Origin: Gammaproteobacteria bacterium
GTDB lineage: Bacteria; Gemmatimonadota; Gemmatimonadetes; Longimicrobiales; Gaopeijiaceae
DNA: 64,000 bases
NCBI GenBank assembly: GCA_028821195.1
Contig: JAPPHB010000063.1
Span: 5,365-69,364 of the forward strand
Direction of reading: 5' to 3'
Shown here in pieces: positions 5,530 to 56,764 of this stretch. The position numbers and the translations under genes were made by a program. Every line of letters begins with the position of its first letter. Positions within the stretch are counted from its first letter, which is position 1. Under the pieces are notes generated by a model. That model searched no databases. It had not been told where the DNA came from and worked only from the letters and a program-made list of their open reading frames with translations.

Positions 5530-6660
5530 CTACAGGGGAGCCTCGTAGAGGCGGTAGGTGCGGTAGATCCTGCCCCCCATCCGCTCGATTGCGGCGTTCA
5601 TTCGGTGGTTGCCCTCCAGGATCCAGGACATGTCCGCCTCCGTCATTCCTGCTGCGCTGGCGTTTCGGAACAGCGCGAGGTAGAGGAGCGCATCGATGCC
5701 CTTGCCCCGCCACTTCTCCAGGAGCCCCAGAATGAGGACGCGCAGGCGGGTGATCCTGCGCTTGTGAACCAGCAGCTTCATGATCGCGAGCGGGGTGAGC
5801 CGTCCGTTGAGCTTGTGCAGAACCTGGTTGAAGTCCGGAAAGGCGACCGCGAGCCCGATCACCTCCCCTGCGGGGGTTTCTGCGAAGAGAACGAGGTTCG
5901 GGTCGATGATCGGCTTCAGTTCGGCGGCCATGTGATCGATCTCGGCGTCCGTCAAGGGGACGAACCCCCAGTTCTTCCTCCAGGCGGAATTGTAGAGTCG
6001 CCGAACGAGGGCGAGTTCCTCGTCGAACCTCGACATTTCCAATGTGCGGATGCGGATGCCGTAGCGGTGGGTCACGATTCTCTCGGCGCGAAACAGGTAT
6101 TCGGGCCAGTTCCCCGCCACGATGTGCCAGGCGTAGAGGTCTTTCACCTTGCGGAGCCCGCAGCCCTCGAGCAGGGCCGGATACCAGGGCGGGTTATGAG
6201 CCAGAAGCAGTGCCGGCGGCCCCCTGTCTCCTTCGACGAGGAGGCCGGTGGTCTCGTTGGTGGAAAAGCTCGTCGGGCCGCGCATGGCTGTGAGACCGCG
6301 TTCGCGGAGCCATCCGCGAACCGCCCTGAACAATCCCTCGGCCACCTGCAGATCGTCAATGCACTCGAACCAGCCGAAGAAACCGACCGCCTCCCCGTGC
6401 ACCCGTTCGTGATTCCGGTTGCGGATCGCGCAGATGCGCCCCACCACTCTGCCGCCACGGAGTGCGAGCCAGGGCTGGACCTCGGAGTGAAGGTGGAAGG
6501 GATGTCTTGCCGTGTCGAAGGCGGTGCGGACGTCCCGCTTCAGGGGCGGCACCCAGTCGGGGTCGGCGCGATAGATCGACCACGGCAGGTTGATGAAGCG
6601 CCGGAGGTCGGCGCGGCTTTCTACCGGGACGACGACGGGCGAAGAAGTGGGACTTGTCAT
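5530..6660 (-). CDS. GNAT-superfamily acyltransferase-like protein
   Basis: A 376-residue cytoplasmic protein that resembles the large conserved bacterial 'GNAT-like' family beginning with a WSIYRADPDWVPPL segment (residues 27-40). An acetyl-CoA pyrophosphate-loop-like motif, WRGKGID, lies at 317-323, followed by a helix and a final segment with EGNHRMNAAIERMGG. The N-terminal half also looks like a degenerate GNAT domain (AIRNRNHE and GFFGWFE at about 78-99), so the protein is probably a tandem GNAT fold. The substrate is unknown. It precedes the btuB riboswitch on the same strand, 20 bases from the RNA's 5' edge, but the riboswitch makes btuB independently regulated. Confidence 0.72.
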   Translation of the reverse strand: MTSPTSSPVVVPVESRADLRRFINLPWSIYRADPDWVPPLKRDVRTAFDTARHPFHLHSEVQPWLALRGGRVVGRICAIRNRNHERVHGEAVGFFGWFECIDDLQVAEGLFRAVRGWLRERGLTAMRGPTSFSTNETTGLLVEGDRGPPALLLAHNPPWYPALLEGCGLRKVKDLYAWHIVAGNWPEYLFRAERIVTHRYGIRIRTLEMSRFDEELALVRRLYNSAWRKNWGFVPLTDAEIDHMAAELKPIIDPNLVLFAETPAGEVIGLAVAFPDFNQVLHKLNGRLTPLAIMKLLVHKRRITRLRVLILGLLEKWRGKGIDALLYLALFRNASAAGMTEADMSWILEGNHRMNAAIERMGGRIYRTYRLYEAPL

Positions 6661-39469: not shown

Positions 39470-42400
39470 ATGAACTCCAATGAGTGGCGGTGTGCGGTGT
39501 TCACCTGGACGGCTGTGACCGCTGTGCTGATCATGGCCTGGCCCGCGGATGCCGCGGCGCAGACGGATGCGGCGAGGATCGAGGCCGCGGTCGCCAGCCT
39601 GGAGTGGCGCAACATCGGTCCGACCATCATGGGCGGCCGGGTCTCGGACCTGGCCGTGGTGGAGTCCGACCCCGCCACCTTCTACGTGGGCACCGCGACC
39701 GGCGGGGTGTGGAAGACGGTCAACCACGGCACCACCTTCGAGTCGGTGTTCGAAAACCAGCCGACCCAGTCGGTCGGGGATGTCACCGTCGCGCCCTCCA
39801 ACCCCAACGTGGTGTGGGTCGGGAGCGGCGAGCCGCAGAACCGCCAGAGCTCGCCGTGGGGGAACGGCGTCTACAGGTCCACCGATGCCGGGCGTTCCTG
39901 GCGGCACATGGGGCTCGAGGAGACCCACCACATCTCCCGCATCCGCGTCCACCCGCGCGACCCGAACATCGTGTACGTGGCGGCGGTCGGGCGGCTGTGG
40001 GGCGCCAACCCCGAGCGCGGCGTCTACAGGACCACCGACGGCGGGGGGAGCTGGGAGCTGGTGCTCTTCGTGGACGAGGACACGGGCGCCATCGACCTGG
40101 CGATGGACCCGAACGACCCCGAGACCCTGTTCGCCGCGATGTACCAGCGCCGGCGCACCGGATGGGGCTTCAACGGAGGCGGACCCGGAAGCGGCATCTA
40201 CCGGACCACCGACGGCGGGGCCTCCTGGGTGGAGCTGACCGAGGGGCTGCCGGATGGCGACATGGGACGCATCGGGCTGGACATCTTCCGGGGTGACGGC
40301 AACCTGGTTTTCGCCATCGTGGAAGCCGACAAGCGCACGCCCGGGCAGGGATTCGGCGGGGGTGGAGGCGGCTCGTCGCAGAACGGCGTGTACCGCTCGA
40401 CCGACCGGGGCGAGACGTGGGAACAGATCAGCACGACCAATAACCGTCCCATGTATTACAGCCAGATCTGGGTCGATCCCACCGACCCGGAGCGCATCTA
40501 CACCGCCGGGTCGAGCCTCTTCAAGTCGCTCGACGGGGGCAACAACTTCACCCCCGACGCCGCGTCCGAAGTCCACCCCGACCACCACGCCATGTGGATC
40601 GATCCTGCGAACTCCGACCACATCATTCTGGGCGGCGACGGCGGCGTGTCGATCAGCTGGGACCGTTCCGACACCTGGCGCCAGCTGACCAATCTGTCCC
40701 TGGCCCAGTTCTACGAGATCGGCGTGGACATGCGCGACCCCTACCATGTGTGCGGCGGACTCCAGGACAACGGCTCCTGGTGCGGCCCGAGCGACACCTG
40801 GTCCAACCAGGGCATTCGCACCCGCGACTGGTACAACGTCGGGGGCGGCGACGGCTTCTACACGGTCATGCACCCGACCAACCCGCGCGTGATGTTCTCG
40901 GAGTCGCAGGGCGGCAACCTCATGCGCGTCGACCTGGTGACCATGGAGCGCACCCGAATGCGGCCGGTGGGGCGCCCGCTGGAGGACGGGGAAGACCGGG
41001 ATCTGCGCTGGAACTGGGACACCCCGGTGCTCCTCTCGCAGCACGACGGGACCGCCGTCTACGTGGGGAGCAACGTGCTCTTCCGCTCGCGCGATCTGGG
41101 GATGACCTGGGAGGAGATCAGCCCCGATCTCACGCACGCCATCGACCGCAGCGAGCTGGAGATCATGGGCGTCCTCGGCTCGGAGCCGCAGATGTCGGCC
41201 AACGATGGACAGGCCTCCTACGGCAACCTGGAGACGATTTCGGAGTCGCCTTTCGACGCCGGGTTGCTCTACGTGGGCAGCGACGACGGCAGGGTGCACG
41301 TAACGCGCGACGGAGGCGGCTCCTGGACGGACGTGACCGGGAACATCCCCGGGCTGCCCGAGCGCACCTACGTGAGCCGGGTGGTGGCGTCGGCGCACGA
41401 TCAGGGCACCGTCTACGCCACCTTCGACGGCCACCGCAACAACGACTTCGCGGCCCACGTCTACGTGAGCGACGACTACGGGGAGAGCTGGCGGCGCATC
41501 GTCGACGGGCTTCCGGCGACCTCGGTCAACGTCGTCGCCGAACACCATCGCACGGCCGGCCTGCTCTTCGTGGGCCACGAGCTCGGAGTGTCCTTCTCGG
41601 TCGACGGCGGGGAACAGTGGGTGGCCCTCGACAACGGGCTGCCCGCGGTTCCGGTCGACGACATCAAGATCCACCCGCGCGAGAACGATCTCGTGCTGGG
41701 TACGCACGGGCGCGGCATCTACATCATGGAGGACATCGCGCCGCTGGAGGGTCTTACTGCCGAGGTGTTGGCGGCGAACGTCCACCTCTTCCCGGTGCGG
41801 CGCGCCACCTCGTACAACCCCTACACGCCACAGGGCTGGACGCCGGGGGTGTACGTGTCGCCCAACCCGGCGGCGGGGGCGCTGATCAGGTACTACCTCG
41901 GTGAGGACCTTCCGGCGGCAACGCAAGTGGCCGCGTCCTCCGAGGAGAACGGCGATGGGGACGACGGCTCCTCCGACGCCTCCGGCCAGCCGAAGATCAC
42001 CATTCTCGACGAAGCTGGCGAAGTGGTGCGCGAGCTCACCGGGGCGGGGGCCGCGGGCATCCGGCAGGTGCGGTGGGATCTGCGCATCGAGCCTCCCTAC
42101 ACGCCGTCAGGTCCGCCCCAGCAGTTCGGCGGAGGCTTCGGGGGTGGCCAGGCGCGCGGCCCGCGGGTGCTTCCCGGCACCTACACGGTGCGGCTGGAGG
42201 CCGCCGGCGTCACACAGGAAGAACAGGTGGCGGTGCGCCTGGATCCGCGGGTCGAGATGAACCGAGCCGATCTGGAGGCCCGTCAGGCGGCGCTGATGAG
42301 CGCCTACGACCTCGCGGGACCGGTCTACGAGGCCGGGCAGGCCGTCCAGCGCGTCACCACCCAGCTCATGGAAGTCAGCGCGCTCCTGCGGGAGCAGGAG

Positions 42401-42712
42401 GAGGGGCGGGAAGACCTGAGCGATGAGGTGAGCGCCCTGCTCGAGGAGGCACGCGAACTGAGGGGCGACATCAACCAGGCGGCCGCGGGAGCGCGGGGCG
42501 CGGGCGCCATCGAGTCGTCCAGCTCGCGCCCCACGGCCGACCAGCTCTGGCAGCTCGACCAGGCCTGGGAGAAAGTGCCGCCGCTTATCGAACGCCTGAA
42601 CGAGATCGTGACCGGTGAGATGCCCGCGCTCTACCGCCGGCTTGACGAGCTGGGGATCCGCCCCGACCCGGGCGAGGCGGTGACGATGCCGATGCGGCGG
42701 CGCGGGGAGTAA
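39470..42712 (+). CDS. Large secreted VPS10/sortilin-like beta-propeller protein
   Basis: A 1080-residue exported protein (signal peptide to about residue 31, ADAAAQ). It is built from BNR/Asp-box blades, repeatedly showing S/TTDGGxSW-type motifs (YRSTDAGRSWRHM, YRTTDGGGSWELV, YRTTDGGASWVEL, HVTRDGGGSW). These form the ten-bladed VPS10-like propeller found in many soil-bacterial glycosyl-hydrolase-like exoproteins. A C-terminal FlgD-like sandwich (about 840-920, VVRELTGAGAAGIRQVRWD) precedes a helical end. The exact activity is unknown. The start is ATG 39470 with AAGGAG 9 bases upstream. Confidence 0.85.
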   Translation: MNSNEWRCAVFTWTAVTAVLIMAWPADAAAQTDAARIEAAVASLEWRNIGPTIMGGRVSDLAVVESDPATFYVGTATGGVWKTVNHGTTFESVFENQPTQSVGDVTVAPSNPNVVWVGSGEPQNRQSSPWGNGVYRSTDAGRSWRHMGLEETHHISRIRVHPRDPNIVYVAAVGRLWGANPERGVYRTTDGGGSWELVLFVDEDTGAIDLAMDPNDPETLFAAMYQRRRTGWGFNGGGPGSGIYRTTDGGASWVELTEGLPDGDMGRIGLDIFRGDGNLVFAIVEADKRTPGQGFGGGGGGSSQNGVYRSTDRGETWEQISTTNNRPMYYSQIWVDPTDPERIYTAGSSLFKSLDGGNNFTPDAASEVHPDHHAMWIDPANSDHIILGGDGGVSISWDRSDTWRQLTNLSLAQFYEIGVDMRDPYHVCGGLQDNGSWCGPSDTWSNQGIRTRDWYNVGGGDGFYTVMHPTNPRVMFSESQGGNLMRVDLVTMERTRMRPVGRPLEDGEDRDLRWNWDTPVLLSQHDGTAVYVGSNVLFRSRDLGMTWEEISPDLTHAIDRSELEIMGVLGSEPQMSANDGQASYGNLETISESPFDAGLLYVGSDDGRVHVTRDGGGSWTDVTGNIPGLPERTYVSRVVASAHDQGTVYATFDGHRNNDFAAHVYVSDDYGESWRRIVDGLPATSVNVVAEHHRTAGLLFVGHELGVSFSVDGGEQWVALDNGLPAVPVDDIKIHPRENDLVLGTHGRGIYIMEDIAPLEGLTAEVLAANVHLFPVRRATSYNPYTPQGWTPGVYVSPNPAAGALIRYYLGEDLPAATQVAASSEENGDGDDGSSDASGQPKITILDEAGEVVRELTGAGAAGIRQVRWDLRIEPPYTPSGPPQQFGGGFGGGQARGPRVLPGTYTVRLEAAGVTQEEQVAVRLDPRVEMNRADLEARQAALMSAYDLAGPVYEAGQAVQRVTTQLMEVSALLREQEEGREDLSDEVSALLEEARELRGDINQAAAGARGAGAIESSSSRPTADQLWQLDQAWEKVPPLIERLNEIVTGEMPALYRRLDELGIRPDPGEAVTMPMRRRGE

Positions 42713-42738: not shown

Positions 42739-42753
42739 CTGACGTTACGTCAG
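42739..42753. terminator. CTGACGT-T-ACGTCAG palindrome at a convergent junction
   Basis: Seven-base arms with a single-base centre overlap the stop codon of the CDP-alcohol phosphotransferase gene (minus) and lie 27 bases after the VPS10-like stop (plus). The loop is too short for a standard RNA hairpin, so it may equally be a protein-binding palindrome. There is no T-tract. Confidence 0.25.
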
Positions 42754-43479
42754 CCTTCGCGCGATCCACACCGTGCGGAAGACCGCGGTGGCCACCGTTC
42801 CCACCGCGGTCACCACCAATGCGCCCAGCAGGACCGTGCCCGGGTCGCGCCCCAGGAGCGCGGCGCCGGTGCCGTCGAGGATCGCGCCGAAGCCGATCAG
42901 CAGGAGCCGCTCGGCGCGCTGCATGACGCCCGCCGTGCACAGCACCCCCTGGCTCTCGCCACGTGCGCGTGCATAGCTCACCAGCAGCGAGCCGCCCAGC
43001 GCCGCGGCCACCACCGCGACCGCCCCACCCGAGGCGCGAAAGGCCACCGCCAGCCCGACGAACGCGGCCACCTCGGCGAACCGGTCGATGGTCGAGTCCA
43101 GGAACGCCCCCCGCGGCCCTGCAAGGCCTCGCGCCCGCGCAACCCGCCCATCCATGGCATCCGCGACGCCGCTCAGCAGGACCGCCCAGCCTCCCATCGC
43201 GAACCGCCCCGAGGCGAAGAACCACCCCGCCGCCGCGCCGAAGGCGAACCCCAGCAGGTTGTAGAAGAGGGGCGAAAGGCCGAGGAGCAGCGACGCCCGC
43301 TCCACCGGCCGCACGAACCAGAAGAACCAGCGGCGCACGAAGGATCCGAGCACGAACTTGCCCCGGGCCGAGGACTCGAGCGCGTCCCTCGCGCGGTTGG
43401 CGCCACTCAGCACGAAGACCGGCATGGTGGCAAGCGCAATCCCCACGATCACGACCAGGGCCGTCAACTCGGATCTCAC
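42745..43479 (-). CDS. CDP-alcohol phosphatidyltransferase
   Basis: A 244-residue integral membrane enzyme. The full CDP-alcohol phosphotransferase signature D-x2-DG-x2-AR-x8-G-x3-D-x3-D is present: DAMDGRVARARG, then GAFLDSTID. This family transfers a phospho-alcohol from a CDP-alcohol to another alcohol (phosphatidylinositol, phosphatidylglycerol or ethanolamine phospholipid synthases). Its GTG start at 43479 overlaps the upstream TGA (GTGA), so it is translationally coupled to the nucleotidyltransferase-like gene. With plsC it forms a three-gene lipid headgroup unit. Confidence 0.88.
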   Translation of the reverse strand: MRSELTALVVIVGIALATMPVFVLSGANRARDALESSARGKFVLGSFVRRWFFWFVRPVERASLLLGLSPLFYNLLGFAFGAAAGWFFASGRFAMGGWAVLLSGVADAMDGRVARARGLAGPRGAFLDSTIDRFAEVAAFVGLAVAFRASGGAVAVVAAALGGSLLVSYARARGESQGVLCTAGVMQRAERLLLIGFGAILDGTGAALLGRDPGTVLLGALVVTAVGTVATAVFRTVWIARRLT

Positions 43480-44510
43480 GATGACCGGGTACCGTTGGCT
43501 GCTCGCGAGCCCGGGCTTGCGCCGGCCTGGGCCCCGGGTCCCGGGCGCCTGCGGCCATCCGCGGACGTCTGTTCCCCTCGCGCTCCCGCGCGCGCGGCCC
43601 GCAACACCCGCAACGCCTTGGGAAGCAGCAGCGGAAACGGAAAGCGCCGCTCGAGGGGTGTGATCTCGAACGTCATCCCGGTGCGCCGCTCCACCTTGCG
43701 CACGATGTAGGGGAACCAGCTGTCGAAGGTCAGCATGTGCTTGACCCAGCGGGTGGTGGCGCGCGCCTTGCTGATGCCGAAATACGCGTTCAGCCTGAGC
43801 TGGGCCACGGACGACGCGGGACGAGTCGCGCGGTACTTGCCGTTCGATCGCTCGAGCACCCCGGACGCGACCTCGGCCTCGAGGATGGGCGTGTAGATGC
43901 CGCGCAGTGTTTCCCGCTGAGCCTCGTACACGGCGCTTACCCGGCCTCCGCGTTCCGGCCGGATCTCTCCGGCGTACGAAATCTCGAGCATGCGCCGGCA
44001 GAAGTCGTCCACGGAAAACGAGCCCTCCAGGAACGGAAGGGTCCAGTCGAGCACCATCCGCCTCGCCCCGGCGATCAGCTCCTCGACCCACGCGGCCGCT
44101 TTCGGGTCGCGGGCATGCACCACCGAGATGTGATGCGCCATGCGGCCCAGGCAGAAATGGTCCAGGCGGCGCGGCCCGAGTTCCCGCTGGAAGTCGGCGC
44201 GCGAGAGCACGAGGCACTTGGCCAGCGGACCGTCAGGCGGAGCGGGCCAGAAGGCGATCACGGTCGGAGCCAGCACCCGGCTCACGGTCGCCAGCAGGCC
44301 CGCGCTGCGCGCCGTGTAGCCGCCTTCGGAGAGCGCGCGATAGAACGCCCCGTAGTCGTCAACGACGACGATCAGGTCCCAGGCGCTGTGCCGGTCCGGG
44401 CTTGCCGACACGAGCCGCGAGCCGTACGCGAGCACGGCCACCAGGCCGTCGCCGCCGGTGTTTCGCAGCCCGGAAACCAGGTGCTCGATGGATGCCTCCA
44501 TCCCGTTCAT
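43476..44510 (-). CDS. Tam41-like nucleotidyltransferase (putative lipid cytidylyltransferase)
   Basis: A 344-residue protein with a nucleotidyltransferase-fold start: VAVLAYGSRLVSA then SAWDLIVVVDDYGAFYRA. This resembles the YGS...D-x-I-x-x-VDD region of mitochondrial Tam41-type CDP-diacylglycerol synthases. Later conserved pieces are LDHFCLGRMAHHISVV and NAYFGISKARATTRW. The overlap with a CDP-alcohol phosphotransferase downstream and plsC upstream (ATGA on both sides in effect) strongly suggests it makes the CDP-activated lipid used next. The exact substrate (phosphatidate, ceramide phosphate or another) is inference. The C-terminal 40 residues are low complexity. Confidence 0.68.
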   Translation of the reverse strand: MNGMEASIEHLVSGLRNTGGDGLVAVLAYGSRLVSASPDRHSAWDLIVVVDDYGAFYRALSEGGYTARSAGLLATVSRVLAPTVIAFWPAPPDGPLAKCLVLSRADFQRELGPRRLDHFCLGRMAHHISVVHARDPKAAAWVEELIAGARRMVLDWTLPFLEGSFSVDDFCRRMLEISYAGEIRPERGGRVSAVYEAQRETLRGIYTPILEAEVASGVLERSNGKYRATRPASSVAQLRLNAYFGISKARATTRWVKHMLTFDSWFPYIVRKVERRTGMTFEITPLERRFPFPLLLPKALRVLRAARAGARGEQTSADGRRRPGPGAQAGASPGSRAANGTRSS

Positions 44511-45331
44511 GCGGGCTCCGCCGCCGCGGGGACGCCCCGCATTTCGCCGAGCATTCCGGTCATGACGCCCCGCATCTCCCCGATGAACGCATCCAGATCG
44601 TCGTCCGCCGCGGGTGACTCGAAGGGTCCCCGGCACTCGACTCGGGTGCGCATCAGCGGTAGGTTCCCGAAGAAGTCCCCGAGTCGCGTCCACTTCCACA
44701 ATCCGTCCGCCACCACCACGTACACGCTCCAGCGGCGTGCCGCCAGAATGGTCGCCAGCCCCAGCTTCTTGAAGGGGCCGATGCGACCGGTCCTGCTCCG
44801 GGTTCCCTCCGGGTAGATGATGAGGGGATGCGTGGAGGCGGCCGCCTCGCTGCGAAGCCGGTTCAACTCGCCGCGCAGGGTTGCTCTCGCATCGACCAAG
44901 GGGTATCGGTACAGCCTTGTCATGTGGGATATTAGGGGTACGCCGCGTGCGTATCGGCGGCGCGTCACGATGCGGGGGTAGACGCCGTGCATCGACGCGA
45001 CGACGAGCGGGATGTCCAGCAGCGACTGGTGGTTCATGAGTACCAGCACGCCGGCGGTTGCCGGGATGTCCGGCAGCTCGCCGAAACGGACCCCGCCCAT
45101 ATGACGAAGAAAAAAAATGACCACATGAGCCGTGAAGCGCTGCCACCCGGTGAGCAGAGCGTCACGATTCCCCGGCAGCAATCGCGCCATGGGTGCGATC
45201 AGGAGGCGCTGAATCACGTCGCAAGCCAGCAGAGCCGCGCCGAGCGCGGTCAGGGTCGAGGCGCCACGGAGGTCCAATGACGTGTCCTGTATGGCGGGTG
45301 TGGTCCGATCGGAAGAACATCGGGCAAACAT
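44507..45331 (-). CDS. plsC: PlsC-like acyltransferase (1-acylglycerol-3-phosphate type)
   Basis: A 274-residue membrane-associated acyltransferase. Motif I is NHQSLLD (NHxxxxD), and motif III EGTRSRTG is followed by PFKKLGL. Both are diagnostic of LPAAT/PlsC enzymes. A hydrophobic N-terminal segment anchors it. Its TGA overlaps the start of the nucleotidyltransferase gene (ATGA). The ATG 45331 used here abuts the divergent ATG 45332, leaving no room for either ribosome site, so the true start may lie further in. Confidence 0.87.
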   Translation of the reverse strand: MFARCSSDRTTPAIQDTSLDLRGASTLTALGAALLACDVIQRLLIAPMARLLPGNRDALLTGWQRFTAHVVIFFLRHMGGVRFGELPDIPATAGVLVLMNHQSLLDIPLVVASMHGVYPRIVTRRRYARGVPLISHMTRLYRYPLVDARATLRGELNRLRSEAAASTHPLIIYPEGTRSRTGRIGPFKKLGLATILAARRWSVYVVVADGLWKWTRLGDFFGNLPLMRTRVECRGPFESPAADDDLDAFIGEMRGVMTGMLGEMRGVPAAAEPA

Positions 45332-46741
45332 ATGAGTGACAACGGAAACGCTAGCAGGAAATCCGCTTCGGCGTCAACGCGACGGGTGGCCCGCGACGGG
45401 ACCCGGGATGGCTTCGCCGCCGGGACGGACGGAAGGACGGCGGTCGCCCCGAGCCGGGCCGAGCCGGCGGATGAGCGGCCGCCGCTTCGCGGACTCAGCG
45501 ACTACGACTACACCAACTTCTACTTCGCGGCGGGCACGGATCCGTTCGGGATCCTGGAGCCGTTCGGCGAATGGTGGAAGGACGCCGAGTTCGACGGAGG
45601 CTACTACCTCTACGGGCTGCCGATGGGCTCTGCGCCCGCGACGCGCGTCGAGATCGGCGATCCCAAGACGAGCGAGACGCGCGAGGGACTGATCAACTTC
45701 GCGTCCTACAACTACCTGGGCCTTTCCTATCGTCCCGAAGTGATCGAGGCGGTCTGCGATGCGGTTCGCAAGTACGGCGCCGGAGCCTCGGGGTCGCCGG
45801 TGCTCTCGGGCACCATGGACCTGTACAAGCGGCTGGCGACGGAGATGGCGGACTTCAAGGGCAAGGAAGGCGCCCTCATCTTCCCGACGGGATACAGCGC
45901 CAACGTGGGGCTCATCTCGGGGCTGATGCGTCCAGGCGACCTGATCGTGGCCGACAAGCTGGCCCACGCCAGCATCGTCGACGGCATGATCCTCTCCAAG
46001 GCGACCTCACGTTTCTTCAAGCACAACAACCCGGAGGATCTCGACCGCAAGCTCCGCGGATTCAGCGGCAAGAAGCTGGTGATCGTCGAGGGCGTCTACT
46101 CGATGGACGGCGATGTCGCCAGGTTGCCCGAGATCGTCGACGTCTGCAGGAAGCACGGTGCGCGCCTGCTCATCGACGAGGCGCATTCCACCTTCGTCTA
46201 CGGTCCGAACGGCCGCGGCGTCGCGGAGCATTTCGGCCTCGACGACGAGGTCGATATCCACCTGGGTACCTTCTCGAAGAGCCTCGGAGGCTTGGGCGGG
46301 TTCGTCGCCGGCCCGGCGGAACTCATCTACTACCTGCGCGGCTTCGCGCGCTCCCGGGTGTTCTCGTGCGCGCTTCCGCCCCCGGTCACGGCCGGCCTGC
46401 TGAAGGCGCTGGAGATCGCGAGAGCCGAGCCGGAACTGCGCGATCGGCTCTGGGACAACGCCCGCTACATGCATGGGCTGCTCGGAGAAGCCGGCGTGGA
46501 CGTCGGCGATTCCACCTCGCAGGTGATCTCGATCATGATCCGCGACGACGCCGGCATCTTCCAGATCGCCGAGGACCTTCTGCACCAGGGGGTCTACATC
46601 AACCCGGTCCGCTTCCCCGCCGTGGGCAAGCACAAGTCACGCTTCCGCATGTCCATCTCGGCGGCGCACACCCGCTCCGAACTCGAGGAGGGCGCCGAAA
46701 TCATCATCTCCATCCTCCAGAAATACGGAAAATGCCCCTGA
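45332..46741 (+). CDS. Serine palmitoyltransferase-like alpha-oxoamine synthase
   Basis: A 469-residue PLP enzyme of the alpha-oxoamine synthase family, which condenses an amino acid with an acyl-CoA. The PLP lysine is K316 in GTFSKSLGGLGGFVAG. Other conserved elements are NFASYNYLGLSYRP and YGAGASGSPVLSGT upstream and the DEAHS-type acid DEAHSTFVYG. The N-terminal 50 residues are low complexity. SPT, AONS and ALAS cannot be separated by motif alone, but the lipid-enzyme neighbourhood favours a sphingoid-base (SPT) role. It begins a plus-strand run with an ADC-like protein (10-base overlap) and a lipid kinase. The start may be further in; no strong Shine-Dalgarno is seen. Confidence 0.85.
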   Translation: MSDNGNASRKSASASTRRVARDGTRDGFAAGTDGRTAVAPSRAEPADERPPLRGLSDYDYTNFYFAAGTDPFGILEPFGEWWKDAEFDGGYYLYGLPMGSAPATRVEIGDPKTSETREGLINFASYNYLGLSYRPEVIEAVCDAVRKYGAGASGSPVLSGTMDLYKRLATEMADFKGKEGALIFPTGYSANVGLISGLMRPGDLIVADKLAHASIVDGMILSKATSRFFKHNNPEDLDRKLRGFSGKKLVIVEGVYSMDGDVARLPEIVDVCRKHGARLLIDEAHSTFVYGPNGRGVAEHFGLDDEVDIHLGTFSKSLGGLGGFVAGPAELIYYLRGFARSRVFSCALPPPVTAGLLKALEIARAEPELRDRLWDNARYMHGLLGEAGVDVGDSTSQVISIMIRDDAGIFQIAEDLLHQGVYINPVRFPAVGKHKSRFRMSISAAHTRSELEEGAEIIISILQKYGKCP

Positions 46742-47394
46742 CCCGGTATCACTATTCCCAGGCCGTCAGCGCCTTTTTCGAGATCGCCACGTCGGACGCC
46801 CGGCGCATCCTTCCTCCGCACCTTCAACCGCTCGAAGTCCAGCACGAAGCCAGCATCCTCGCCGTCACTGCCTTCGACTTCACCGGCAGCATGGTCGGCA
46901 CCTATCAGGAGATCGTGCTCTCGGTGATCGTCCCGCCGCTGATCGCCCCGGGCCAGGGCATGGCGAAATCGGCGTTCTATCCCTTCCTCGTGGGCACGAG
47001 CACCGAGGCGTCGCGCGAGCACGCCATCGAGCGCTGGCACCTTCCGCACTACATGGAGGACCTCGACATCCGCTTCCTGCCTTCGGACGGGCGCATGCGC
47101 GTGGAGGTGCGCGAGGGCGATCGGCCGATCCTGGACTTCGAGGTCGCGGACCACGATTCGGAGCCTGTCGATCACCTGTACCAGTCGTTCATGGTCAATG
47201 GCGAAGACCGCTTCAAGGTGGACATCCACATGCGGGGGCCGCATAGCGAGCACGAGGAGGAGGCCGGGTCGCTGAAGCTCCACGAGCATCCGATGACCTC
47301 CCAGCTCACGCTGGACCAGGTGGCCACCTATCCGTTCCGCGAGCAGTGGATGACGGACGGCGTCCAGGTATTCGAGGAGCTCGAGCGCATCTGA
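46732..47394 (+). CDS. Acetoacetate-decarboxylase-fold protein lacking the catalytic lysine
   Basis: A 220-residue protein whose order of conserved pieces matches the ADC superfamily: ATSDARRILPPHLQPLE, YQEIVLSVIVPP, and REHAIERWHLPHY, where ADC has GRELSAYPKK. In true decarboxylases a lysine in that last segment forms a Schiff base; here the aligned residues are Trp/His, so another reaction or a binding role is likely. The start at ATG 46732 overlaps the SPT-like stop by 10 bases, indicating translational coupling. It may act on the 3-keto product or on an acyl intermediate; that is speculation. Confidence 0.6.
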   Translation: MPLTRYHYSQAVSAFFEIATSDARRILPPHLQPLEVQHEASILAVTAFDFTGSMVGTYQEIVLSVIVPPLIAPGQGMAKSAFYPFLVGTSTEASREHAIERWHLPHYMEDLDIRFLPSDGRMRVEVREGDRPILDFEVADHDSEPVDHLYQSFMVNGEDRFKVDIHMRGPHSEHEEEAGSLKLHEHPMTSQLTLDQVATYPFREQWMTDGVQVFEELERI

Positions 47395-48353
47395 GCGGCG
47401 GGGCGCGCACCTTCGTCATCTTCAACCCGGCCTCGGGGCACGGCCGGGGCGCGCGCCGCATCCCGCTCTACCGGGAACTTCTCGGCAGGCACCTTGCCTC
47501 GTGGGAATGGGCGGCGACGACGGCGCCCGGCGAGGAAGCCGAACTCGCGGACAGGGCCATCGCCGGGGGTGCGAAGCTGGTTGTGGCGGTCGGAGGCGAC
47601 GGCACCTGGAGCCAGGTGGCGGATCGCGTGGTGGCGGCCGGGCGCCCGGATGTCACGTTGGGACTGCTGGCTTCGGGAACCGGCAACGACTTCGGCAAGA
47701 GCCTCGGGCTCAGCTACGGCGACCCGGAGCAGGCCGTGGCGGCGTTGGCGGCGGGCCGGACCCGCCGTATCGATGTCGGGCGGGTGGTGTCGGAATGGCG
47801 GCCGGCCCCGCATCCGGAGGTGGATGACGCCGAGCCCTGGCGGGATGCGCCGCGCCACTTTCTCAACCTGGTCGGCTTTGGCTTCGACATCGCGGTGATA
47901 GATGCCACGCTGCGGGCACGCTTCCTGCGGGGGGCGGTCCTGTACAAGGTCACCGCGCTCCAGCAACTGTTCCTGTACACGAGTCCGCGGCTCCGCCTGA
48001 CGGACGGCGGTGGATGGAGCACGGAAGGACGGCATCTCATCCTCACGATATCGAACGGACGCATCTTCGGGGGCGGGTTCCCGATCGCTCCGGACGCGGA
48101 CCTCGAGGACGGTCGGTTGGACGCCTGCGCGATCGCCGATTCCTCGCCTCTCGGGCGCGCCCGCCTGTTCAGTCTGGCCGAGAAGGGCAGGCATGTGGGG
48201 GCGAAGGAGGTCTCTTTGCGTCAGGACCGCGCTTTTGCCGTACAGTTCGACGAGCGCGTACGTTACGAGGTCGACGGCGACGTGCATCAATCGAGCACGG
48301 GCGAGGTGCGGGTGGATGTCGTGCCGTCGGCGCTCCCGGTGATCGTTCCGTGA
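47346..48353 (+). CDS. Diacylglycerol/sphingoid-lipid kinase family protein
   Basis: About 335 residues. The DAGK-catalytic fold is clear: [23 protein letters not shown] (nucleotide loop) and [13 protein letters not shown], with [18 protein letters not shown] in the C-terminal domain. Such enzymes phosphorylate diacylglycerol, ceramide or sphingoid bases. Behind an SPT-like gene, a ceramide or sphingoid kinase role is attractive but unproven. The start is uncertain: GTG 47346 lies inside the preceding gene, while the domain could begin at CTG 47391 immediately at that gene's stop. Confidence 0.8.
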
Positions 48354-48363
48354 AGGAGGCTGG

Positions 48364-51300
48364 ATGGATCGCCTTGCTGCCGCTCCGCCGAGCACTGCTC
48401 AGCCCATCCGCGTAGTGACGGCGGCGTCGCTCTTCGACGGGCACGACGCCGCCATCAACGTGATGCGCCGGATCCTGCAGGATTCGGGCGCGGAAGTCAT
48501 CCATCTGGGGCACAACCGCTCCGCCCTCGAGATCGTGGAGTGCGCGGTCCAGGAGGACGCGCACGCCATCGCGATCAGCTCGTACCAGGGCGGGCACATG
48601 GAGTTCTTCACCTACGTGCGCGACCTGCTGCGCGAGCGGGGCGCGGACATCCGCATCTTCGGCGGTGGTGGTGGGACCATTCTGCCCGCGGAAGCCGAGG
48701 AACTGCACCGGCGTGGCATCGACCGGGTCTTCTCTCCCGACGACGGGCGGGCGATGGGGCTTCAGGGGATGATCGACGAGGTGCTGGAGGGCGCGCGTGC
48801 TTCGGTGCGCTCGTCGCTCGATGATCCGGAAGGGGAGGTGCGGGCGCTCGGGCAGGGGGACGTGGGCGCGGTGGCGCGCCTGATCTCGGCGGCCGAGAAC
48901 GGCTATCCGGGCGCGGACGAAGCGATGGAGATGGTGGCCGAGATGGCGGCGGCCCGGCGGGTGCCGGTGCTGGGCGTGACGGGCACGGGCGGGTCGGGCA
49001 AATCGTCGCTGGTGGACGAGCTGGTGCGGCGCTACCTGTCCGGCACCTCGGACGGCCGGGTCGCGATCATCTCGGTGGACCCGTCCAAGCGGCGGACCGG
49101 TGGCGCGCTCCTGGGCGACCGCATCCGGGTGAACGCCGCCAGCAGCCCGCGGGTCTACATGCGCTCGCTGGCCACCCGCGCCTCGAAGCTCGGCCTGTCG
49201 CCGCATGCGCGCCAGGCCGTGGACGTCTGCAAGGCCGCCGGCTTCGACCTGGTCATCATCGAGACGCCCGGGATCGGTCAGTTCGGCGCCGAGGTGGTGG
49301 GGCATTCGGATGTGTCGCTGTACGTGATGACGGCCGAATACGGCGCCGCCAGCCAGCTCGAGAAGATCGACATGCTGGACTACGCGGACGTGGTCGCCAT
49401 CAACAAGTTCGACCGCCCGGGAGCGCTGGACGCGCTCCGGGACGTGCGCAAGCAGTACCGGCGCAACCACCGCCTGTGGAGCGTGCCCGACGCGGCGCTC
49501 CCGGTGTACGGCACCGTGGCCTCGCGCTTCAACGATGCCGGCGTCAACCGCCTGTACCTGGCGCTGCTCGACCAGTTGCGGCGGAAGACCGGCGCGGCAC
49601 TCGCGACCGAGCGCGACCCCGTCGACGACGACCGCGCCGAGCACACGCCGATCCCCCCCGAGCGCACCCGCTACCTGGCGGAGATCGTGGAAGCGGGCCG
49701 CGACTACGGCCGCCGCGTCGACGAACAGGCCGCGCTGGCCCGCCAGCTTTATCAACTGGACGGGGCGATCCGGCTGCTGGGACAGGACGACAGTGCGGCG
49801 TCCCGTGCGGCCGCGTCCGGAAGCGGCGGCGCGACAGGCTACCGCGCGCCCGCAGCCGCCCGCGACGAACCGGAACAAGTCGCGCCCGAACTGCCTCCCG
49901 CAGATGGCGAGGACGAAGCGCTCGCCCGCCTGATCGACCTCTACCGGCAGACGCGGGCGCGGCTCGACCAACGCAGCCTGGCCCTGCTCGAGGAATGGCC
50001 GGCGGTGAAGCGCCGCTACCGGGCCGACACCTACGCCTACCAGGTACGTGGCCGGACGGTGGAGCGGAGTCTCTTCAGCGAATCGCTCGCCGGATCGCGC
50101 ATCCCGCGCGTGGTGCTGCCCCGCTTCCGCGACTGGGGCGAGGTGCTGCGCTGGCGGCTCACCGAGAACGTGCCGGGGGCGTTTCCCTACACCGCCGCGG
50201 TCTTCCCCCTGCGGCGCCTGGAGGAGCACCCGCAGCGCATGTTCGCGGGCGAGGGCGGCCCCGAGCGCACCAACCGGCGCTTCCACTTCCTCAGCCGCGC
50301 CAGCCTGGCCAACCGGCTCTCCACCGCCTTCGACTCGGTCACGCTCTACGGCGAGGACCCCGACGAGCGCATGGACATCTACGGCAAGGTGGGCAACTCG
50401 GGCGTGAGCGTGGCTTCGGTCGACGACGCCAAGAAGCTCTACTCCGGCTTCAACCTCGCCGACCCGTCCACCAGCGTGTCCATGACCATCAACGGGCCCG
50501 CGCCCATGCTGCTCGGCTTCTTCCTCAACGCGGCCATCGACCAGCAGTGCGAGCTCCACATCCGCGAGAGCGGTCTCGAGGCCGAGGTCGAGGAGCGCAT
50601 CCAGGCCCTCTATCGCGAGCGCGGCGTGGAGCGTCCCCGCTACCAGGGCGCGGTTCCGGAGGGCAACGACCGCCTCGGCCTGATGCTGCTCGGCGCGAGC
50701 GGCGACCAGGTCCTTCCGGCCGATGTCTACGAGCGCATCCGGCGCGAGACCCTCGCCGTGGTCCGCGGCACCGTCCAGGCCGATATCCTCAAGGAGGATC
50801 AGGCCCAGAACACCTGCATCTTCTCCATCGAGCTGGCGCTCCGGCTGATGGGCGACATCCAGCAGTACTTCATCGACGAAGGGGTGCGGAACTTCTACTC
50901 GGTTTCGATCTCGGGATATCACATCGCGGAAGCCGGCGCCAACCCCGTCACCCAGCTCGCGCTCACCCTCGCCAACGGCTTCACCTACGTCGAGTACTAC
51001 CGCTCTCGCGGGATGCGCGTCGACGACTTCGCGCCCAACCTGTCGTTCTTCTTCTCCAACGGCATGGACCCGGAGTATGTGGTGCTGGGTCGGGTGGCCC
51101 GCCGCATATGGGCGAAGGCGATGAAGCACGTCTACGGCGCCAACGCCCGCTCGCAGAGGCTCAAGTATCACATTCAGACCTCGGGCCGCAGCCTGCACGC
51201 GCAGGAGATCGCCTTCAACGACATCCGCACCACGCTGCAGGCCCTGTACGCCCTCTGCGACAACTGCAACTCGCTGCATACCAACGCCTACGACGAAGCC

Positions 51301-51864
51301 ATCACCACGCCCACCGAGGAAAGCGTGCGCCGGGCCCTGGCGATTCAGCTTGTCATCAGCAGGGAGCTGGGACTGTCGAGGAACGAGAACCCGCTGCAGG
51401 GCTCGTTTATCATCGAGGAACTGACCGACCTTGTCGAAGAGGCCGTGATGCGCGAGTTCCTGCGGCTGTCGGAGCGCGGAGGCGTGCTCGGGGCGATGGA
51501 GCGCATGTACCAGCGCGGCCGCATCCAGGACGAGTCGCTCGAGTACGAGTCGCGCAAGCACAGCGGAGAACTGCCCATCGTGGGGGTCAACACCTTCCTG
51601 GGTCCGGAGGGATCGCCCACGCGGGTGCCGGATGAAGTGATCCGCGCCACCACCGGCGAGAAGGACTACGCCATCGCGTCAAACCAGGCCTTCAGGGCGC
51701 GCAACCGGGGCCGTGCCGACGTCGCCCTCGACGAGCTGAGGCGGGAGGCGCTGGCGGGCGGCAACACCTTCGCCGCGCTCATGGAGGCCTGCAAGGTGTG
51801 TACGCTGGGGCAGATCACGGGCGTGCTGTACGAAGTGGGCGGGCAGTACCGGCGGAACATGTAG
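48364..51864 (+). CDS. icmF: IcmF: fused B12-dependent acyl-CoA mutase with its G-protein chaperone
   Basis: An 1166-residue cytoplasmic protein with the IcmF order. The N-terminal cobalamin-binding domain has [10 protein letters not shown] (H27 is the lower cobalt ligand). A MeaB-like GTPase follows (P-loop GTGGSGKS, K213; [22 protein letters not shown]). After an Ala-rich linker (about residues 475-530) comes a methylmalonyl-CoA-mutase-type TIM barrel with [11 protein letters not shown] and [12 protein letters not shown]. IcmF interconverts isobutyryl- and n-butyryl-CoA and can use isovaleryl- and pivalyl-CoA. It follows the lipid kinase by 10 bases, so it may supply branched or straight acyl-CoA to lipid synthesis. 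It needs cobalamin, which the btuB operon in this window could supply. Confidence 0.94.
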
Positions 51865-55208: not shown

Positions 55209-55381
55209 CGCCTTCAGCTTGCCGCAACCGGGCGGCCGATGGGCCGCGTTCGAGGTGAAGCTGGGGCCGTGAGACGAAGGACTTGGAACTCTCAGGCGTC
55301 AGGTTGCACATTGGTGCAGCCTGCGCCTGGCGACGTACGAGCCGCGCGGACGGAGCCCGACGGAACATGCAGGGGAGGATG

Positions 55382-56764
55382 ATGGACGCGGAGGCATTGG
55401 CGGCGGCGCTTGCGGAATGGCGGGAACGCCGGGCAACCATGCGTGAGGAAGATGACGAGCGGCTTTGGAGGAAACTGCGCCTCGAGTGGAATTACAACAG
55501 CAACCACATCGAGGGGAACACGCTTACCTACCACGAGACCAAGTTGCTGCTCATCTTCGGCCGCACGGCCGGTGGGCACCCGATACGGCACTACGAGGAG
55601 ATGAAGGCGCACGACGTCGCGATCGACCATACGCGACATCTGGCCAGCGCAGAGCGGGTCCTGGGCGAGGGCGACATCCGGGATCTGAACAAGATTCTTC
55701 TCAAGGAGCCGTTCTGGCACGTTGCACAGACTCCCGACGGGCAGCAGACGCGGAAGCGGATCGTTCCGGGAGAATACAAGACACAACCGAACCACGTACG
55801 AACTGCTACCGGGGAACTACATCGGTTCGCGGAGCCTGAGGAGACGCCCGCGCTGATGCAGGCGTGGGTCCATGACTTTCGGCGCGACTTGCACAATTCG
55901 GACGCCAGCGAGTCTCAACTGCCGCTGTTTCTGGCTCAGTCACACTGGAGCTTCCTGCGGATTCATCCGTTCGGTGACGGTAATGGGCGGACCGCGCGCC
56001 TGCTGACCAACTACGTCCTGCTGAGGTCCGGTTTGCCTCCGATGGTGATCAAGAGCGCCGAGCGGGACCGCTACATCGGGGCGCTGCAGAACGCCGATCT
56101 GGGTCGAGTGGCGCCGCTAGCGGGGTTCATGCTGGAGAGTGTCCTGTGGTCGCTTGGCCTTGCGATTCGAGCCGCGAAGGGAGAATCACTCCGAGAGAGC
56201 GAGGATCTCGGCAAGGAGATTGCTCTCTTCGTCCGACGCCACAGAGCTGATGAGCCGAAGGCGTCCGATGTCGAATTGCTGGACGATGTCGTTAGCCAAT
56301 GGATTCGTCCCACGCTTCAACGTGTCAAGGAGACGCTTGAGCCCTTGGGTGATTTGTTTGCGGCTAGCAGTTGGCAGTTCTTTGTCAAACGCGGTCAGGG
56401 AGATGTCGTCCAGGGCGTAGGCTTGTTCGAGAGTCGCCTGTGGGAAAGCCTGAAGGAGTCCTATGTGGCGGTGCCGGGATTTCGGCTCTCCAACGAACAA
56501 AGGCTCAGGTTGGAGAGCAGATCTCTTTGGCGGGACTACACGGGTCGCGAAGGGAAGACCTTTTCGCTTGAGCTCTTTCTCATCTGGGAATTCGACGACA
56601 AAGGGGTAGTGTTCGCGGTCGAGATCGACGGTAGGCGCATCTTCGTCCAACGTGTTCGTTACGCCGAGGTGCTGACGCTTGGTGCGGAAGCGGATCGCAC
56701 CGAGGACTTTGTCAGCCAGGCCATGATGGCCGAGATCGACCATCGTTCAGCGGAGCAAGAGTGA
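55382..56764 (+). CDS. Fic-family protein (putative AMPylator, class II)
   Basis: A 460-residue protein. The Fic active site HPFGDGNGRTAR occupies 195-206 (H195, D199, R203, R206), complete for AMP transfer to a hydroxyl. An inhibitory helix motif S40-NHIE-G45 ((S/T)xxxE(G/N)) precedes it, as in class II Fic proteins regulated by self-inhibition. The C-terminal 200 residues include a winged-helix-like or other unknown domain. Ambiguous starts: ATG 55367, 55379 or 55382, where AGGGGAGG lies just before. Base composition over 56200-56760 is visibly less GC-rich than the neighbours, suggesting later acquisition. The targets are unknown. Confidence 0.85.
   Translation: MDAEALAAALAEWRERRATMREEDDERLWRKLRLEWNYNSNHIEGNTLTYHETKLLLIFGRTAGGHPIRHYEEMKAHDVAIDHTRHLASAERVLGEGDIRDLNKILLKEPFWHVAQTPDGQQTRKRIVPGEYKTQPNHVRTATGELHRFAEPEETPALMQAWVHDFRRDLHNSDASESQLPLFLAQSHWSFLRIHPFGDGNGRTARLLTNYVLLRSGLPPMVIKSAERDRYIGALQNADLGRVAPLAGFMLESVLWSLGLAIRAAKGESLRESEDLGKEIALFVRRHRADEPKASDVELLDDVVSQWIRPTLQRVKETLEPLGDLFAASSWQFFVKRGQGDVVQGVGLFESRLWESLKESYVAVPGFRLSNEQRLRLESRSLWRDYTGREGKTFSLELFLIWEFDDKGVVFAVEIDGRRIFVQRVRYAEVLTLGAEADRTEDFVSQAMMAEIDHRSAEQE

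Follow-up and report, generated by a model that had tools for sequence, protein, structure and literature searches.

A conserved six-gene module predicted to direct sphingolipid synthesis with its own headgroup machinery in a Gemmatimonadota genome

Proposed function of the cassette

The 64,000-nucleotide stretch analysed here (contig JAPPHB010000063.1, positions 5,365 to 69,364, of assembly GCA_028821195.1; hereafter the window) comes from a genome labelled Gammaproteobacteria bacterium and placed by GTDB in the Gemmatimonadota. It carries six genes that form one conserved module, encoding a serine palmitoyltransferase-like protein (SPT), an acetoacetate-decarboxylase-fold protein (ADC), a lipid kinase (KIN), an acyltransferase (PLSC), a Tam41-like nucleotidyltransferase (TAM), and a CDP-alcohol phosphotransferase (CDPAP) (Table 1). 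We give about even weight to the reading that this locus is a sphingolipid cassette, mirroring the CDP-diacylglycerol (CDP-DAG) phospholipid pathway on a sphingoid backbone. The view of the initial annotation that the locus serves a lipid of the sphingoid-base type and brings headgroup machinery of its own is supported by the SPT tree, the TAM fold, the acceptor block of CDPAP, and the co-occurrence of the genes.

In the proposed pathway, SPT would join a fatty acyl thioester to an amino acid (probably serine), and the resulting 3-keto long-chain base would be N-acylated by a bCerS homologue encoded elsewhere in the window or by PLSC, and the keto group would be reduced by an oxidoreductase. 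KIN would phosphorylate the lipid to ceramide-1-phosphate, TAM would activate this product with CTP to CDP-ceramide, and CDPAP would exchange the CMP for inositol-1-phosphate supplied by the MIPS of the genome, giving inositol-phosphoceramide phosphate. PLSC may add an acyl chain, and ADC may stand between SPT and KIN, acting on the keto-lipid or passing it on. What we show are protein families, folds, motifs, co-occurrence, and gene order; the chemistry of every step is inferred from these, and inositol as the headgroup from motif and distribution. Somewhat less confidence is placed in the wider proposal that an inositol sphingolipid is produced via CDP-ceramide or a CDP-long-chain base in a number of phyla that are for the most part uncultivated, with the ADC-fold protein performing a new reaction or hand-over.

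Conservation of the six-gene module

Conservation was analysed in a phylum sample of 200 genomes, the window's own included, and in a wider sample of 80 loci out of 140 relatives, obtained by an ADC-profile scan of species genomes. Synteny rests on tblastn; a simple ORF caller misplaced some genes, e.g. in the window, where it called an ORF antisense to ADC. All six genes are present together in 28 of the 80 loci, i.e. 22 loci with the divergent arrangement of the window and 6 loci in which SPT-ADC-KIN-PLSC-TAM-CDPAP form a single same-strand run (L191, L198, L200, L204, L207, and L210, labelled Vicinamibacteria or Acidobacteria). Divergent six-gene copies elsewhere occur, by record label, in Krumholzibacteriota or Krumholzibacteriia (L158, L174, and L181), Latescibacterota (L172), and Vicinamibacterales (L213). 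The arrangement in which PLSC-TAM-CDPAP on the minus strand face SPT-ADC-KIN on the plus strand was confirmed and goes beyond chance, recurring in records labelled with several phyla.

Within 5 kb of ADC, KIN was found in 66, TAM in 65, PLSC in 62, CDPAP in 61, and SPT in 43 of the 80 loci. Of the 65 loci in which TAM or CDPAP was matched, 33 lack an SPT match in the stretch searched; many loci are cut by contig ends. The corresponding numbers for icmF and the Vps10 gene, which adjoin the six genes in the window, are 7 and 4, respectively, and the icmF-bearing loci (L136–L142) are the nearest relatives of the window. Both genes were dropped as members on these counts; the six genes are one module, and icmF, which the initial annotation had placed in the cluster, lies outside it.

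In the phylum sample, ADC (E <= 1e-5) was detected in 35 genomes and SPT (E <= 1e-100) in the identical 35, the two genes adjoining each other by coordinates in every case. TAM was detected in 31 genomes, and locus-type CDPAP (E <= 5.5e-58) in the identical 31; the two are adjacent in 30 of these, and G086 has them at two contig ends. Both pairs are present in 29 genomes spanning 14 genera (Fisher's test, p ~1e-26, related genomes not being independent), and presence extends over 16 genera of one phylum. The prediction that the two units are conserved together was thus borne out both by the 28 complete loci and by these 29 of 200 genomes. By coordinates, SPT lies at the TAM locus in 14 of the 29 genomes; G033, although split over two contigs, is counted among them on the basis of a 36-residue SPT fragment beside PLSC.

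The single-contig genome G075 carries KIN, TAM, and locus-type CDPAP (L216, 7338-10634) in a stretch with no SPT, ADC, or PLSC match. This trio may be either a decayed cassette or a trio acting on another lipid.

SPT identity

The best PDB matches of SPT are serine palmitoyltransferases (288 and 259 bits), followed by an AONS/KBL-named chain (248 bits), another SPT (245 bits), ALAS (237 bits), KBL (233 bits), a cysteate acyltransferase (207 bits), and AONS (197 bits). In our tree, 10 cassette SPTs form one clade (support 100/100). A 97/97 branch sets this clade, joined by two unassigned relatives and five SPT rows, apart from seven BioF/KBL/ALAS rows. Those five comprise two solved SPTs, the Roseomonas mucosa SPT (613 bits, above the NCBIfam equivalog cut-off of 500), a Roseomonas haemaphysalidis homologue, and an SPT-like gene of Rubrobacter (444 bits, below its NCBIfam cut-off of 640). 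The trees contain few references and several long branches, the BioF rows do not form a single group, two SPT rows are partial (taken from PDB alignments), and the Thioclava row is cut at the locus start. Clustering of SPT with AONS, the outcome that the initial annotation held to speak against a sphingoid-base pathway, was not seen. The grouping is with serine palmitoyltransferases rather than with AONS, which is support for, not proof of, an SPT-type enzyme; an AONS, KBL, or ALAS identity is disfavoured by the 97/97 split, though p-AU for a clade of cassette and BioF proteins is 0.071.

The enzyme may alternatively use cysteate, alanine, or glycine and yield a sulfonolipid-like or 1-deoxy lipid, which we consider quite improbable. 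Its own clade beside the SPT rows, its failure to reach any NCBIfam SPT cut-off, and its constant partnership with an ADC-fold protein would suit such a substrate, but its closest solved relatives are SPTs, with the cysteate acyltransferase scoring lower, and phosphorylation by KIN would require a hydroxyl group such as the serine-derived C1-OH.

Cytidylyltransferase and headgroup transferase

TAM scores just below the gathering cut-off of PF09139 (23.3 against 24 bits). Its AlphaFold2 model (pLDDT 89.8) was searched with Foldseek, and ranks 1–5 are all Tam41, the best being 7ecd from a Firmicutes bacterium (E 1.9e-9, TM 0.58/0.71); mitochondrial Tam41 is also among these five best PDB chains. 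The family profile likewise has Tam41 as its best PDB sequence match, a weak one (E 0.01). The nucleotidyltransferase motif YGS...D starts at residue 29, and G30, S31, and D45 are invariant in 51 sequences. From the model, TAM appears to be a Tam41-fold nucleotidyltransferase, and a role as sphingolipid-phosphate cytidylyltransferase is predicted. PF09139 was detected in 0 of 14 control genomes, Caulobacter included.

The TAM of the window matches plasmid genes in 14 records, 12 from Roseomonas and 2 from Pseudomonas. Alignment of the TAM profile with the R. mucosa gene gave 28% identity over 258 columns (hhalign probability 99.7%, E 2.8e-25). In R. mucosa, the gene order is CDP-alcohol phosphotransferase, DAGK-family kinase, and TAM, and genes for SPT, ACP, and two permeases of the LptF/LptG type lie nearby; in R. 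haemaphysalidis TAM adjoins SPT and ACP. CDPAP matches R. haemaphysalidis weakly (E 6e-4); by sequence, the kinases and CDPAPs of the window and the Roseomonas systems appear only distantly alike. Plasmid TAM homologues accompanied by LptF/LptG-type permeases, a CerS-type GNAT, and a kinase were also seen in Diaphorobacter plasmid pDCB2 (L239), with arsenic and mercury genes nearby, and in Pseudomonas pPNP1 (L238), where the GNAT matches in two pieces flanking an IS5-family transposase.

The best NCBIfam model for CDPAP is AIP synthase (124.1 bits against a cut-off of 180), ahead of PIPSynth (95.7 against 170) and the BT1523 type (86.3 against 350); none of these cut-offs is reached. The complete CDP-alcohol phosphotransferase motif is present in 58 of 58 copies. 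Its block GGSLLVSY.RARGES.G..C..G.MQRAER nearly matches two aligned MIPS-adjacent PIPS (from G188 and G017) and is absent from the aligned PgsA, PssA, and Roseomonas CDPAP. In PIPS structures this acceptor block binds inositol phosphate, and it would do so here as well.

The distribution of CDPAP is consistent with this assignment. The window genome encodes one MIPS, which has no CDP-alcohol phosphotransferase neighbour, and, apart from PgsA and PssA (both above their cut-offs), the CDPAP of the locus is the only further CDP-alcohol phosphotransferase found. MIPS is present in all 31 TAM genomes (base rate 180/200). Locus-type CDPAP is the sole PIPS-like match (1e-10) in 24 of the 31, and 7 have another too; genomes without TAM have a PIPS-like match in 158 of 169 cases. 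Where another PIPS-like gene exists, it adjoins MIPS in 23 of 23 readable cases (first 30 non-locus rows), and no CDPAP match was found in the MIPS stretch of two of the 24 genomes (G069 and G116). From motif and distribution, we infer that CDPAP is a predicted inositol-phosphate headgroup transferase.

The principal rival explanation is that PLSC, TAM, CDPAP, and KIN form a private phosphatidylinositol-phosphate route on glycerol lipids, with KIN as DAG kinase and TAM as CDP-DAG synthase, and that the SPT-ADC product is separate and merely co-regulated. The solved Tam41 chains are named CDP-DAG synthases, locus CDPAP replaces the MIPS-adjacent PIPS in the 24 genomes, and G075 retains KIN-TAM-CDPAP alone of the six genes. 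However, a CdsA-type gene is already present in the window genome in addition to PgsA and PssA, so a second cytidylyltransferase would be superfluous for CDP-DAG. SPT-ADC accompany TAM in 29 of 31 genomes, the six genes stand as one run in six loci, and the Roseomonas TAM homologue is placed with SPT, ACP, and LptF/LptG-type genes. We regard this glycerolipid route as unlikely.

ADC, KIN, and PLSC

The PF06314 score of ADC (24.5 bits) is below the cut-off of 29.8, and its profile gave chance-level matches only among PDB sequences. The AlphaFold2 model (pLDDT 95.4) has acetoacetate decarboxylase 3bgt as its best Foldseek match (E 5.9e-11), and ranks 1–24 (E <= 2e-8) are acetoacetate decarboxylases or related enzymes, the next rank having an E of 0.016. 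Alignment to a Nostoc protein of the family that contains YPK (hhalign 96.3%) located the position of the lysine, which we take to be the catalytic Schiff-base residue. This position is occupied by His in 34, Tyr in 8, Thr in 2, and Phe in 1 of 45 sequences, with no Lys, and by His in 74 and Thr in 2 of the 80 scan loci (4 were unread by the pattern). A true decarboxylase is disfavoured by the absence of this lysine. At the cut-offs used, the ADC-fold protein occurs in exactly those phylum genomes that have this SPT.

In the 15 split genomes, in which SPT and the TAM unit lie apart, two ADC copies were found without exception, one at SPT and one at the TAM unit, and KIN adjoins the TAM-side copy in all but G110 and G122, whose KIN accompanies SPT-ADC instead. 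Twelve of the 14 unsplit genomes have one ADC, and G069 and G167 have three each. That each half keeps its own ADC suggests that ADC probably serves both the SPT-product side and the kinase side. The extra ADC-like copies of G069 and G167 (L056, L058, and L060) have no matches to the other five cassette genes in ~20 kb.

The Foldseek matches of the ADC fold include secondary-metabolite enzymes such as MppR, which would suit a role in secondary metabolism unrelated to membranes. The genes are constantly coupled to those for a cytidylyltransferase and a CDP-alcohol phosphotransferase, and they are present in 16 genera of one phylum; both points argue against such a role, which we consider highly improbable.

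KIN has DAGK_cat and YegS_C domains and retains GGDGT in 64 of 64 copies. In PLSC, NHx4D is present in 59 and EGTR in 46 of 61 copies, and no PLSC match was found beside some TAM units (L036, L037, and L047).

Ceramide synthase and reductase

Neither a ceramide synthase nor a reductase had been recognised in the initial annotation. The statement no longer holds for the synthase, since a bCerS homologue is encoded at 5533-6660; it stands for the reductase, none having been assigned in the genome. The window protein is 44% identical over 365 aa to a Rubrobacter radiotolerans gene that is flanked by an SPT-like gene on one side and one for an NAD(P)-dependent oxidoreductase on the other, and the GNAT in the CerS position of R. 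haemaphysalidis matches 5545-6645(-) with 40% identity over 378 aa. It is 38–44% identical to proteins at the bCerS position of SPT clusters and a good candidate, by sequence, for the 'missing' N-acyltransferase, located ~39 kb from SPT and outside the cassette. This GNAT family is broad, with matches in 42 plasmid records at 1e-20, down to ~25% identity, and a ceramide synthase function of the window protein is therefore not assured. G099 carries a 91% copy of it ~47 kb from SPT, and no homologue was found in the stretches from G162 and G078. The R. radiotolerans genes (plasmid, L247:6231-9598) encode an SPT-like protein, a bCerS-like protein, and the NAD(P)-dependent oxidoreductase, with a gene of the LTA synthase family next in line; the run looks like an actinobacterial sphingolipid operon.

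In a different order of steps, KIN would phosphorylate the reduced base first, PLSC, a homologue of LPA acyltransferases, would be the ceramide synthase, converting long-chain-base-1-phosphate, which resembles LPA, to ceramide-1-phosphate, and the bCerS homologue would serve something else. PLSC-family enzymes are mostly O-acyltransferases, PLSC is missing beside the three TAM units noted above, and the bCerS homologue lies in the same window, but PLSC stands within the cassette with its motifs largely retained, the other loci examined have no bCerS close to the cassette, and the KIN-PLSC-TAM-CDPAP run of the six collinear loci matches the sequence of steps. On balance, we judge this order rather unlikely, and N-acylation by either the bCerS homologue or PLSC is kept in the proposed sphingolipid pathway.

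Candidate keto-reductases were identified in some loci. An SDR gene lies directly upstream of SPT in L198 and L200 (best NCBIfam model mycolate reductase, 149.5 and 137.3 bits, respectively, against a cut-off of 380), a gene for a zinc-type alcohol dehydrogenase follows KIN in L158 and L213, and a gene of the same cluster, assigned by clustering, is likewise placed in L181. A reductase general to the cassette was not found, the SDR being confined to two of the six collinear loci and the dehydrogenase to these three loci. Weak relatives of Roseomonas CerR, each ~4 kb from KIN, were observed near the cassette in L213 (14133-15197, 35% over 175 aa) and near the TAM-CDPAP pair in L217 (14712-15815, 29% over 234 aa), and not elsewhere among the cassette loci examined. 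Spt-like proteins are reported from ~40 phyla, with non-homologous replacement of bCerS and CerR suggested in some (PMC11334938).

Points weighing against a sphingolipid cassette

Several observations weigh against the sphingolipid reading. Regarding gene content, G075 and G127 have TAM-CDPAP without SPT-ADC, KIN being kept in G075 and not found in the G127 stretch; six genomes have SPT-ADC without TAM (G027, G132, G139, G154, G169, and G188; completeness of G132 and G154, 89 and 90%, respectively); and SPT is away from the TAM unit in 15 of 29 genomes. SPT is below every NCBIfam SPT equivalog cut-off (360.8 against 640, 342.8 against 500, and 277.2 against 670 bits), and the cassette-BioF clade, at a cost of 15.8 log units, is not formally rejected. 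ADC has no assigned step in the proposed pathway. As to the remaining enzymes, no bCerS lies close to the cassette in other loci examined, the Roseomonas CerR query had no match within the window, and the L198 SDR lacks a close relative in the window genome (13 matches, <=37% identity). The plasmid collection contains no match to KIN at 1e-10, and the Roseomonas loci contain none at 0.01. Finally, Caulobacter CC_1159, which has a CDP-alcohol domain, is required for CPG2, with the second headgroup unit, and dispensable for ceramide phosphoglycerate (CPG) (PMC11324152); it acts late, and the Caulobacter parallel therefore gives no example of CDPAP working directly on CDP-ceramide.

Gene organization and surroundings of the locus

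The window genome is a 4.21-Mb assembly of 140 contigs (99.57% complete, 5.89% contaminated). The closest relatives are public MAG records that carry the label Gemmatimonadetes or, in some cases, Gammaproteobacteria, and we regard the genome as a MAG of the Gemmatimonadota. Window gene calls and domain searches confirmed all seven genes of the initial annotation, at their positions and on their strands (Table 1).

Table 1. Genes of the cassette, the adjoining icmF gene, and the bCerS homologue in the window
Gene	Product	Position	Strand	Evidence
CDPAP	CDP-alcohol phosphotransferase of phosphatidyl-/archaetidyl-inositol-phosphate synthase type	42745-43479	-	PF01066 40.8 bits
TAM	Tam41-like nucleotidyltransferase, predicted CTP:lipid-phosphate cytidylyltransferase	43476-44510	-	PF09139 23.3 bits; fold
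PLSC	Lysophospholipid-type acyltransferase	44507-45331	-	PF01553 48.5 bits; Hx4D at 101, EGTR at 175
SPT	Serine palmitoyltransferase-like alpha-oxoamine synthase	45332-46741	+	PF00155 198 bits
ADC	Acetoacetate-decarboxylase-fold protein without Schiff-base lysine	46732-47394	+	PF06314 24.5 bits; fold
KIN	DAGK/YegS-family lipid kinase, predicted ceramide or long-chain-base kinase	47346-48353	+	PF00781 92.2 bits, PF19279 82.5 bits; GGDGT at 83
icmF	Cassette bystander	48364-51864	+	
bCerS homologue	bCerS-homologous GNAT protein, same window but separate locus	5533-6660	-	Homology to CerS-position proteins

With first in-frame starts, neighbouring genes overlap by 10 (SPT/ADC), 4 (PLSC/TAM), 4 (TAM/CDPAP), and 49 bases (ADC/KIN), and those of PLSC and SPT lie on adjoining bases (45331/45332). 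The N-termini of PLSC and SPT are poorly conserved, so the real starts may be further in, allowing space for a promoter. A Sortilin-Vps10/BNR repeat protein is encoded directly beside the cassette (39470-42712, plus strand; PF15902 112 bits), and the protein at 55283-56764 (plus strand), which contains the stretch HPFGDGNGRTAR, is, by its motif, presumably a Fic-domain protein.

In total, 20 genes around the cassette and the separate SPT-ADC loci were annotated, including those for an alpha/beta hydrolase, PaaX, a cyclophilin/HEAT protein, an SDF symporter, aminotransferases, MFS, HTH, and TetR proteins, an ABC ATPase, a phosphodiesterase, and a racemase, among others. The sole lipid-carrier enzyme among them is of the undecaprenyl-diphosphate-synthase type; its gene stands beside ADC-KIN and belongs to a gene cluster found in 6 loci. 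The ADC proteins of L136, L138, and L139 are 99–100% identical to that of the window; these records are labelled Gammaproteobacteria, and other near relatives are labelled Gemmatimonadetes. The Gammaproteobacteria labels are probably wrong.

Comparison with known systems

The initial annotation knew of no described cluster with this composition. This stands for the complete set, including PlsC, ADC, and a CDPAP of the inositol type, as no description of the six-gene cassette was found in the literature searched; it does not hold for the trio of kinase, CDP-DAG-synthase-like protein, and CDP-alcohol protein beside SPT, which is known as Caulobacter CC_1159-1162 (PMC11324152). The term 'CDP-ceramide' was not found in the literature searched.

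In the well-known inositol and choline sphingolipids, the headgroup is attached by exchange from glycerolipids. The cassette is a compact, testable gene set, which suggests a role for CC_1161-like proteins and a use for inositol where MIPS is present but the usual neighbouring PIP synthase is lacking. With it, the predicted range of phosphosphingolipid synthesis grows to include records under the labels Gemmatimonadota, Acidobacteria, Krumholzibacteriota, and Latescibacterota. It also brings to attention an ADC-fold protein that, at the cut-offs used, is carried by exactly the genomes with this SPT.

In Bacteroides, phosphatidylinositol is made on glycerol, and AUR1-like BT_1522 is the inositol-ceramide synthase (PMC9246714). 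The Bacteroides inositol lipid cluster BT_1522-1526 and the window have in common a PIP-synthase-like CDP-alcohol phosphotransferase plus MIPS, and an inositol sphingolipid is the product in Bacteroides and is predicted here. The window differs in having a cytidylyltransferase and a kinase, suggesting direct use of a CDP-lipid. No PAP2-type Pfam match was found in the seven locus proteins, the remainder of the genome not having been searched for PAP2. Mitochondrial and Firmicutes Tam41 resemble the TAM of the window in fold and nucleotidyltransferase motif, whereas the latter has a Pfam score below the cut-off and a sphingolipid phosphate as its predicted substrate.

The Caulobacter CPG pathway comprises aasR, cerR, acpR, spt, and cerS, together with cpgA (CC_1159), cpgB (CC_1160), and cpgC (CC_1161). 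In PMC11324152, CC_1160 is an assayed ceramide kinase, and CC_1161, which has a CDP-DAG-synthase-type InterPro domain, is required for CPG, the first headgroup lipid; it 'might form' NDP-activated ceramide, as proposed for Caulobacter without demonstration. By locus number, the order of the CC_1159-1163 genes described there equals that of the Roseomonas cluster, and the Roseomonas relatives retain CDPAP-KIN-TAM with SPT-ACP, as in the Caulobacter-type order. The Roseomonas ACP and LptF queries had no match within the window. SPT, a lipid kinase, a CDP-DAG-synthase-like protein, and a CDP-alcohol protein are common to the Caulobacter pathway and the window, CC_1161 being likened by gene order and domain description. 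The window cassette differs in its additional PlsC and ADC-fold genes and in a CDPAP with the putative inositol-phosphate acceptor block. It is best read as a variant of the Caulobacter-type phosphosphingolipid pathway, with a predicted CTP-activated route that has no demonstrated precedent among sphingolipids.

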